Positions 18,207 through 25,118 of a DNA stretch of 64,000 bases are shown piece by piece. A program made the position numbers and the translations under genes. Every line of letters starts with the position of its first letter. Position 1 is the first letter of the stretch. The stretch is taken from NCBI GenBank assembly GCA_938001865.1, contig CALLAW010000044.1, positions 1-64,000 on the forward strand, written 5' to 3'. Below the pieces are notes generated by a model. It made no database searches and had not been told where the DNA came from. It saw nothing but the letters and a program-made list of their open reading frames with translations. The stretch is from an uncultured Saprospiraceae bacterium. GTDB lineage: Bacteria; Bacteroidota; Bacteroidia; Chitinophagales; Saprospiraceae.

Positions 18207-18250
18207 GAAAAAAATAAGCGAAAGTTCGATTAACATCTGACTTTCGCTTA
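18207..18250 (-). terminator. Rho-independent terminator of the YceI gene
   Basis: On the minus strand TAAGCGAAAGT pairs perfectly (11 bp) with ACTTTCGCTTA and is followed by a run of seven T. It lies about 70 bases after the YceI stop. Confidence 0.9.
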
Positions 18251-19104: not shown

Positions 19105-20022
19105 TTACTTTACTTGTCTGACAGGCTTGGAAGGTACGTCAGTTGGGTTGAAATCGAGTAATTCTTGGATACTCTTGACGATATGGACATTGGAAGGCAC
19201 TGCGAATTGATTAGCGAGGACTTCGTATCCAGTGAGTATAGCGATCGTATCTGATCCTAAGATATCACTCAATCTGGAGAGATATGCTTGGATAGATGAT
19301 CGTTGGAGTTTTTCATTGATAAGAGTGATGACTCTATTCGCATCGACAAGTTTGATCGTCTCTTGGAGACTTTCTAAGGAGTAATTCATACCAAACATGA
19401 GTACTTCATTGCCTTTTGCCTTGAGCATGTAGTGGAGATAGAGGAGTGAGAGTTCGTGTGATTGTCCTTCAGGAAGGTAGAGGATAACTTTAGTCTTTTC
19501 TACATTATTGGGGTTGTCATCACATGAATTGATCTGCCCGATGATGACATTCTTGAGGAGATTGGTTACGAATCTCTCGTGTACTTCTGAGATAGATCCT
19601 GCGATCCACATCATCCCCATCTTCTCTAAGAGGGGGTTGACGAGCTGATTCATGGTCTCGTGTAGTCCCTCTTGGTGGATATATTGATTGAGGATAAGAT
19701 TGATATTGTGCTCGTCTAGCCTGAGTACTGAGTACATGATGGCATCAATATTATTTTCAAACTTCGAGTCTACATTATTGAGCTTGGCAGCAATAGTCTG
19801 TCTCTCATCGATGGAGAGCTTAGCAATATTTGAGATTTTATACCCATTATTATTTAGCAATGCGATATTCATGACATTCTTTAGGTCATCCTCATCATAG
19901 TATCGAATATTTGTCTTGGTACGCTTGGGTATGACTATAGAGTAGCGCTTCTCCCAGATGCGAATCGTGTGAGCTTTGACGCCTGTAAGCTTTTCAATGT
20001 CTTTTATAGAATAAACTACCAT
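19105..20022 (-). CDS. MerR-family regulator with cobalamin-binding-like domain
   Basis: A 305-residue DNA-binding regulator. The N-terminal MerR winged helix (1-70) reads YSIKDIEKLTGVKAHTIRIWEKRY and RYYDEDDL. A helical bundle follows (about 80-170, with MWIAGSISEVHERF, resembling the W-x9-EH cap of CarH/LitR). A Rossmann-like B12-binding-type domain (180-290) has LPEGQSHELSLLYLHYMLKAKGNEVLMFG. The usual DxHxxG B12 signature is degenerate although the His is present, so cobalamin binding and light sensing are uncertain. It is divergent from bshA with a 101-bp shared regulatory gap. Confidence 0.82.
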   Translation of the reverse strand: MVVYSIKDIEKLTGVKAHTIRIWEKRYSIVIPKRTKTNIRYYDEDDLKNVMNIALLNNNGYKISNIAKLSIDERQTIAAKLNNVDSKFENNIDAIMYSVLRLDEHNINLILNQYIHQEGLHETMNQLVNPLLEKMGMMWIAGSISEVHERFVTNLLKNVIIGQINSCDDNPNNVEKTKVILYLPEGQSHELSLLYLHYMLKAKGNEVLMFGMNYSLESLQETIKLVDANRVITLINEKLQRSSIQAYLSRLSDILGSDTIAILTGYEVLANQFAVPSNVHIVKSIQELLDFNPTDVPSKPVRQVK

Positions 20023-23284: not shown

Positions 23285-24427
23285 CTAAGTGGGAGTAGGC
23301 AGAGGCACACCTAACAGTGCAAACTCACTATCTAACCTCGGCGCTATACGAGACCAATGATACTTGTGCATCTCTGCTCGGAGAGTCTGCAGCTCCTCAT
23401 CGGTGAGTGGCGGTGCCATGAGTAGGTCTCTCAGTTGCGTATAGTACTCCTCTTCACTGTCGTAAAAGTACTGAGGATAGACCATCGGATCAAGATGCTC
23501 TACAAATGCTAATCGCCTTGGCAAGAGAGGGATACAGCCAGCTGCTATGGCCTCGACGGCAGAGATCCCAAAGAAGTCTTGATGGCTAGTGACAGGTAAG
23601 TGAGTACAGCTCTGGAGTAGGCTGAGATACTCCTCTCTAGAGTCTAGATAACCAATATGGACGACCTTGCTCTCTAGCTTATCCAAGCTTGATCGGAAGA
23701 TTGGTGGGACCTTGGACGTAGCACTTCCTAGGACAACTAACTCATACATCATCCCCTCATCAGCAAGTCTGAGTAGCACATCAAAGAATAATTTTGGATT
23801 CTTATCATACTCCCATCGGTGATTCCATAATATTCTCGGGATATCTCTTATTGGTTTTTGGGCTTGACCCAGAGACTCAAGTGCATCTATACCTATACCT
23901 ACGACTGAAGACTTAGACTCTATCTCACGGATCGTAACTCTTGATCTATAGTCTGGCATCTTACTGAGTAAGCCATCAGCAGCTCTAATGAAACTGGTCT
24001 GGTGAAACTTAGAATTGAATACAACATGATCAGCTACCAACGCTGAACTATAATTGACAAATCCGTAGTGATGATCTCGACCAGTCTGAGTATCTGTATC
24101 TGTAGGACTCCATGGATAGGTGAGTTGGTTCTCGTGAAAGTAGACGAGTATCGGCAGATCACGATAGCGAGGACTGAGTAGCGACTTGAGTAATCCAAGA
24201 TCTAGGAGATCAGTGGTCATGATGGCTCGATAGATCTTGCCACTCTGATTGAGCTGCCTCGCAAGGTGTATCGCTGCACCATACATCCTCCACTTCCAAT
24301 ACTTATCTGGGAGAGAGTAGATATCCCAATCGTACTGTGAGTGCTTGGTATACTGATCTGCCCAATATCGATGGCTCCCTCCGTGAAATGGAGAGATAAG
24401 TACTAACTTATCTGCATGTAGTCTCAT
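23285..24427 (-). CDS. tRNA-queuosine alpha-mannosyltransferase-like glycosyltransferase (DUF3524/GTDC1 type)
   Basis: A 380-residue GT-B enzyme. The N-terminal part carries the DUF3524 signatures LISPFHGGSHRYWADQY, KYWKWRMYGAA, YFHENQLTYPW and the NSKFH loop. The C-terminal domain has LWNHRWEYDKNPKLFF and SHQDFFGISAVEAIAAGCIPLLPRRLAF. In vertebrates this family (QTMAN/GTDC1) mannosylates queuosine at tRNA-Asp position 34. The bacterial homologue's substrate is unproven; Q-modified tRNA is a reasonable guess. It is preceded by a terminator-ended candidate small RNA that could be its attenuated leader. Confidence 0.85.
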   Translation of the reverse strand: MRLHADKLVLISPFHGGSHRYWADQYTKHSQYDWDIYSLPDKYWKWRMYGAAIHLARQLNQSGKIYRAIMTTDLLDLGLLKSLLSPRYRDLPILVYFHENQLTYPWSPTDTDTQTGRDHHYGFVNYSSALVADHVVFNSKFHQTSFIRAADGLLSKMPDYRSRVTIREIESKSSVVGIGIDALESLGQAQKPIRDIPRILWNHRWEYDKNPKLFFDVLLRLADEGMMYELVVLGSATSKVPPIFRSSLDKLESKVVHIGYLDSREEYLSLLQSCTHLPVTSHQDFFGISAVEAIAAGCIPLLPRRLAFVEHLDPMVYPQYFYDSEEEYYTQLRDLLMAPPLTDEELQTLRAEMHKYHWSRIAPRLDSEFALLGVPLPTPT

Positions 24428-24542
24428 GATCTGTCGAAGATAGGGACTCTCATAGACTATGACTCTTGCAATAACTAGGATTCCACTGAAAGGATCAAAT
24501 AATATTTGACAATCTCAAGACATATTTGCTCTAAAGCAAAAT
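24428..24542. other. Gap between candidate sRNA terminator and the DUF3524 gene
   Basis: 115 AT-rich bases. They include ATTTTGCTTTAGAGCAAAT on the minus strand, whose TTTGCTTTAGAGCAAA is a short inverted repeat. No exact TAnnTTTG element is present for the DUF3524 gene, which is compatible with read-through from the upstream leader or with a weak promoter. Confidence 0.4.
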
Positions 24543-24586
24543 AAAAAAAAGCAGGTACAAACACTTGATCAATGCCTCTACCTGCT
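24543..24586 (-). terminator. Intrinsic terminator of the candidate sRNA/leader
   Basis: On the minus strand AGCAGGTA and TACCTGCT (8 bp perfect) enclose a loop with the palindrome TTGATCAA, followed by TTTTTTTTATTTT. It could also stop rluB transcripts that run antisense through the small membrane-protein gene. Confidence 0.8.
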
Positions 24587-24639
24587 CCGGTCTTTGGGAT
24601 AAAAAACTCATGCTCACTCACTTATCAATGAGTTACGAG
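24543..24639 (-). ncRNA. Candidate small RNA or attenuated leader (about 95 nt)
   Basis: Bounded on the minus strand by a consensus promoter (24644-24675) and a strong intrinsic terminator. The predicted RNA folds into a first hairpin AACTCAT/ATGAGTT (24605-24634 region) and a second one AGCAGGTA/TACCTGCT with an inner CATT/AGTG stem, then eight U. No ORF with a plausible start lies inside. It ends about 115 bases before the DUF3524 start, so it is either a free-standing sRNA or a terminated 5' leader of that gene. I do not recognise a known riboswitch class. Confidence 0.55.
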
Positions 24640-24643
24640 ATGA

Positions 24644-24675
24644 CAAACGTAACAAAAATTATTAACATATTGCAA
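24644..24675 (-). promoter_or_regulatory. Promoter of the candidate sRNA/leader
   Basis: The minus strand shows TTG (24673-24675), exactly 21 bases, then TACGTTTG (24644-24651). The spacing and elements equal those of the tRNA and rRNA promoters at the left edge of the window. Confidence 0.6.
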
Positions 24676-24764
24676 TTTATCGTAATATGTTTTATTCTTG
24701 TGTATTTCTTTGGGTTGTACTTTTTATTACATTTGTGTCTTGACATCTACAGAGTCAATCAACT

Positions 24765-25118
24765 ATGCAAGCACATACAGCTTCTATGCTTTACGCCTTT
24801 GGACTGATCTGTCTTGGCGTCTATATGTTCACTACATTCAGTACGCCTCGGGTGGAGATCATCTACTATGTACTGAGTGGTGTGATGATGCTCGTGCTCA
24901 ATACTAATGTCAGTTTCAAGGTCAAGAATCCATATTACTTCATCAGTGTGGTTACAGTCATCATCACTCTATACGTAGGGACGAGGGCTTACTTTTACTA
25001 TAGTGATGATTACCTTCCTTGGTACGGGTTGTTGGGTGGTTTGTTTGTTTTGGGAGTTGTGGCATCTTGCCTATTGGTCATCCATAGACCTCGAAAGGTC
25101 AAGACGATTACTAAGTAA
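24765..25118 (+). CDS. Small four-helix membrane protein, unknown function
   Basis: 117 residues. Hydrophobic segments lie near residues 8-26, 31-46, 57-74 and 84-105, with a basic C-terminal tail (HRPRKVKTITK) that would be cytoplasmic. No family recognised. The ORF is the longest open frame here, and overlapping shorter frames upstream look like noise. Its 3' end overlaps the 3' end of rluB by eight bases (convergent), so the mRNAs of the two genes are antisense to each other. Confidence 0.6.
   Translation: MQAHTASMLYAFGLICLGVYMFTTFSTPRVEIIYYVLSGVMMLVLNTNVSFKVKNPYYFISVVTVIITLYVGTRAYFYYSDDYLPWYGLLGGLFVLGVVASCLLVIHRPRKVKTITK

Follow-up and report, generated by a model that had tools for sequence, protein, structure and literature searches.

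When a short, intrinsically terminated RNA is predicted just ahead of a gene on the same strand, is it the leader of that gene or an RNA in its own right? The question is raised by a locus in an uncultured Saprospiraceae bacterium (genome G000), in a stretch of 64,000 nucleotides that is part of contig C44 and is called the window here. The initial annotation had seen at this locus either a small RNA (sRNA) or a riboswitch/attenuator of a downstream DUF3524 gene. Here, the locus is compared with its counterparts in three other species of the same genus (G001, G002, and G003) and with more distant relatives. With moderate confidence, based on comparative sequence analysis, we read positions 24543-24639 of the minus strand as encoding an independent sRNA of about 97 nt that ends at an intrinsic terminator. 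Note that the intergenic, intrinsically terminated bacterial sRNA is a kind of RNA, not a homology family. The features of the locus are listed in Table 1.

Table 1. Positions in the window of the predicted RNA, its signals and the adjacent genes.
Feature	Position	Strand	Remarks
QTMAN_N/DUF3524 glycosyltransferase gene	23285..24427	-	PF12038 QTMAN_N, E 3e-54; downstream neighbour of the predicted RNA
Predicted small RNA, ~97 nt	24543..24639	-	Fold z -4.6; syntenic counterpart in G001; 5' end inferred from the promoter
Intrinsic terminator	24543..24588	-	Stem of 10 bp, one mismatch and 7 bp; loop of 5; U8 at 24550-24543
Linker AUCCCAAAGACC	24589..24600	-	Directly 5' of the terminator stem, identical in G001; proposed seed
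Promoter TTG-N21-TACGTTTG	24644..24675	-	TTG 24675-24673, 21 nt, TACGTTTG 24651-24644; consensus match only
Operator-like inverted repeat ACATATTA-N10-TAATATGT	24665..24690	-	One departure; overlaps the -33 element
Divergent gene, 117-aa membrane-like protein	24765..25118	+	Homologues beside rluB in G002 and G003, a weak one in G001

The pattern TTG-N19-21-TAnnTTTG is of the Bacteroidota promoter type, and nine sites of this form are present in the window versus 2.0 expected, with a maximum of five in 100 random sequences. The promoter assigned to the RNA by the initial annotation was borne out in position and lies on the minus strand. As far as a consensus match can tell, the RNA appears to have the promoter of its own that is typical of intergenic sRNAs. 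Its spacing had been likened to that of the tRNA and rRNA promoters of the window. This holds for tRNA-Asn (257-331), whose gene is preceded at a distance of 50 bp by an N21-spaced site starting at 206, but not for rRNA, since a single tRNA and no rRNA were found with Rfam and ARAGORN.

The predicted transcript (24639-24543), whose length agrees with the ~95 nt proposed before, folds at -32.3 kcal/mol with a z-score of -4.6. It ends in the intrinsic terminator expected of such an sRNA, a hairpin of -21.6 kcal/mol followed by eight U, which is the most stable among the window's hairpins that precede at least six T. However, a hairpin with U run as strong occurred in 3 of 60 random 64-kb sequences, and therefore the stability of the terminator alone is no proof. 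The stem had been described as a perfect one of 8 bp with eight U; the U run stands, while the stem is longer and interrupted by a mismatch (Table 1). The other hairpin described, at the 5' end, is a weak one (z -2.0, equalled by 12 of 200 shuffles), and no counterpart of it was seen in G001. Elsewhere in the window, the second strongest terminator-like hairpin (-19.8 kcal/mol) is located at 18214 on the minus strand, downstream of the ORF 18991-18320. At 19105-20022 (minus strand), a regulator of the MerR type is encoded that also has a B12-binding domain (Pfam MerR_1 and B12-binding_2) and that we take to be of the kind known from CarH/LitR.

The RNA is flanked upstream by the divergent gene for the 117-aa protein, which has no convincing Pfam family and is arranged tail to tail with rluB. 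Each of the four genomes of the genus has a gene at this place next to rluB. The counterparts in G002 and G003 are clear homologues (39-43% identity); the G001 protein, with 19% over the alignment and an E of 0.011, is a weak one that was assigned mainly by position. Weak homologues of the protein were also found in other genera, where a pattern search of the stretches covered detected no palindrome. A search of GTDB contigs with RluB for further sister species returned two MAGs only, which match G001 and G003.

In G001, the elements follow one another in the same order, that is, the palindrome, TATATTTG, about 120 nt containing AUCCCAAAGACC, a hairpin and seven U. The arrangement of operator-like palindrome, promoter, 12-nt linker, terminator, divergent small membrane-protein gene and rluB is thus kept, with the -7 box and the terminator at the same offset, although GTG instead of TTG occupies the -33 position and the sequence of the terminator stem differs. 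Both stems, unlike each other as they are, fold much better than their shuffles (z -5.2 and -5.4). The 12 identical bases common to the two RNAs have a p of about 0.001 by dinucleotide shuffles; beyond them the similarity is weak, and the overall p is 0.01. Among 61 genomes, the linker together with a U run is present in a single copy in G000 and in G001, and the three other matches show no obvious hairpin by eye. Linker variants were searched for in G002 and G003, with no convincing counterpart, and the RNA as a DNA query against 41 relatives gave only palindrome copies and short fragments. The support for the RNA comes from two genomes only, G000 and G001.

The downstream neighbour of the RNA differs between these two genomes. 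In the window, about 115 nt separate the end of the terminator from the ATG of the DUF3524 gene, as the initial annotation had it, and the description of this gene as tRNA-queuosine mannosyltransferase-like agrees with the QTMAN_N domain. In G001, nadB is divergent to QTMAN, and the RNA-like element is located beyond nadB, beside the counterpart of the 117-aa gene. There, it ends about five bases from the stop codon of nadB, which is encoded on the opposite strand. The element points at the 3' end of a convergent gene and therefore leads no gene in that species, and the same architecture without a same-strand gene downstream argues for a free RNA. It has kept its place independently of the downstream gene in this one sister species, and at this locus synteny in one relative was enough to tell a free RNA from a leader. 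What stays linked to the element is the divergent gene of the small membrane protein together with rluB, and not QTMAN.

That the RNA is nevertheless a terminated leader, a riboswitch or attenuator controlling QTMAN, would agree with the shared strand, the short distance, the position of the terminator ahead of the start codon and the apparent lack of a strong promoter belonging to QTMAN itself. We consider it improbable, because an RNA that in G001 is upstream of no same-strand gene has nothing to control there, and because comparable elements are not seen at QTMAN elsewhere. The upstream regions of 23 QTMAN loci, one of which is the window's own and one of which (L018) covers only 122 nt, were read by eye, and no comparable element of promoter and terminator was seen in the 22 relatives, among them the two species of the genus that also have the gene. 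At the gathering score, Rfam 15 reports only tRNA in the window, with no rRNA and no riboswitch, and at a relaxed E-value the 401-bp region gives only two hits (E 5.8 and 8.5), both due to chance and without relevance. The lack of a riboswitch match also speaks against a leader, and it agrees with the earlier remark that the class of the RNA was not recognised. Thus, of the two alternatives proposed at the outset, the sRNA gains from the synteny in G001 and the shared 12-mer, while the leader loses by the 22 relatives and by G001. As a sister species has the same arrangement with no gene downstream for it to control, the RNA is probably no switch for the tRNA-modifying gene, and QTMAN is probably not controlled by it as its leader. 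Past the terminator and ahead of QTMAN, at 24496-24510 (minus strand), the inverted repeat TCAAATATTATTTGA contains a near -7 box, TATTATTTG, which possibly belongs to a promoter of the QTMAN gene itself.

Two further explanations do not involve a regulatory RNA. The promoter slot with its palindrome is also present in G002 and G003, where it precedes a gene for a surface-type protein of 1437 and 1436 aa, respectively (L062 and L063), with HYR domains in the scanned part of the G003 protein. The promoter and terminator in the window could be what is left after the loss of such a gene, giving a short functionless transcript, and the sharing of the slot and the palindrome, as well as the absence of a close homologue of the surface protein from G000 and G001, fit this explanation. 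It appears unlikely, since the RNA does not significantly resemble either the leaders or the 3' ends of the surface-protein gene (p 0.07 to 0.64) and 12 identical bases beside a terminator are not expected to be kept in a relic. Even less credible is a small protein gene, the 26-codon ORF at 24611-24531 (minus strand) with the product MSFLSQRPEQVEALIKCLYLLFFILL and its counterpart MSSQRPKWLDRFSFF in G001, although a nearby ATG does put the conserved bases into the same reading frame in both species. We give it very little weight, because the ORF of the window passes through the terminator and stops after the U run, the two peptides are alike in SQRP only, and the wobble positions within the shared stretch are invariant.

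The palindrome that overlaps the promoter has a syntenic counterpart in each of G001, G002, and G003, and it is not confined to this locus. With no more than two mismatches, 37-46 sites per genome were found in the genus, compared with 2-9 for the reversed pattern. The gene contexts were read for part of the sites (for example, L053, L057, L059, L117, L122, L129, and L132). Palindromes are located upstream of ion-channel-type genes in G000, G001, and G003, at a divergent glucosaminidase/DUF937 pair in G000 and G001, and at an OmpA-family gene in G002 and a look-alike gene in G003, the sameness of the genes being judged by sequence. A site with a poorer match is present at an M48 peptidase gene in G000. 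At the glucosaminidase gene the palindrome overlaps the -7 box, so that repression is the simpler reading of its sign. In G001, a Peptidase_S24-domain protein (L128:554-1378, minus strand) is encoded after a perfect copy of the palindrome, and this protein is possibly the autoregulated regulator of the palindrome.

Returning to the free sRNA, a mechanism may be outlined as follows. A regulator binding the palindrome, of which the genome has a few dozen further copies, would switch the transcription of the RNA. The terminator hairpin would end and protect it, and the exposed, unpaired linker would serve as an antisense seed for mRNAs from other loci, presumably without Hfq. Hfq was not found in four genomes, by a search whose control detects it in 5 of 14 known genomes. 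With one mismatch allowed, G000 has 26 sites for the complement of the linker, versus 3 for the reversed control, and G001 has 18, versus 12, the locus of the RNA itself being counted. A few of the sites (L097, L099, and L109) are close to a start codon or lie in DNA outside of ORFs, and none is common to G000 and G001 among the 28 loci read. Therefore, no target is claimed. One of these sites (L099; contig C34 of G000, position 820), GGTTTTTGGGAT, is one mismatch from the linker complement and lies directly 5' of another terminator-like hairpin.

Known sRNAs of the phylum offer a comparison. Bacteroides, too, have no obvious Hfq, and intergenic sRNAs are established there. Eight of those in B. 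thetaiotaomicron, each of which combines a start site with an intrinsic terminator, have been validated by Northern blotting (PMC7366714). GibS and other sRNAs of that species resemble the present candidate in being intergenic units with their own promoter and intrinsic terminator and with no recognised Hfq (PMC7366714). In GibS, a conserved single-stranded segment is likewise the proposed seed, but it is located in the 5' portion, whereas the candidate seed here is directly 5' of the terminator (PMC7366714). In size and structured, terminated form, the RNA is within the usual range of the riboswitches, 6S and other regulatory RNAs in Rfam 15, none of whose families it matches relevantly. A narrow literature search found no paper on a terminated small RNA in Saprospiraceae.

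We tentatively suggest, as a possibility that goes beyond the sRNA itself, that it may represent a new lineage-specific family under a genus-wide palindrome regulon of ion channel, glucosaminidase, OmpA-family and surface-protein genes, in which one regulator would act on envelope genes directly and on further mRNAs via the sRNA. The locus would provide a concrete sRNA candidate in Saprospiraceae, with a promoter, a putative operator and a candidate seed, and the palindrome common to a few dozen sites would constitute a testable regulon. As for the question raised at the beginning, the locus suggests that a terminated RNA may directly precede a gene on its own strand without being the leader of that gene.
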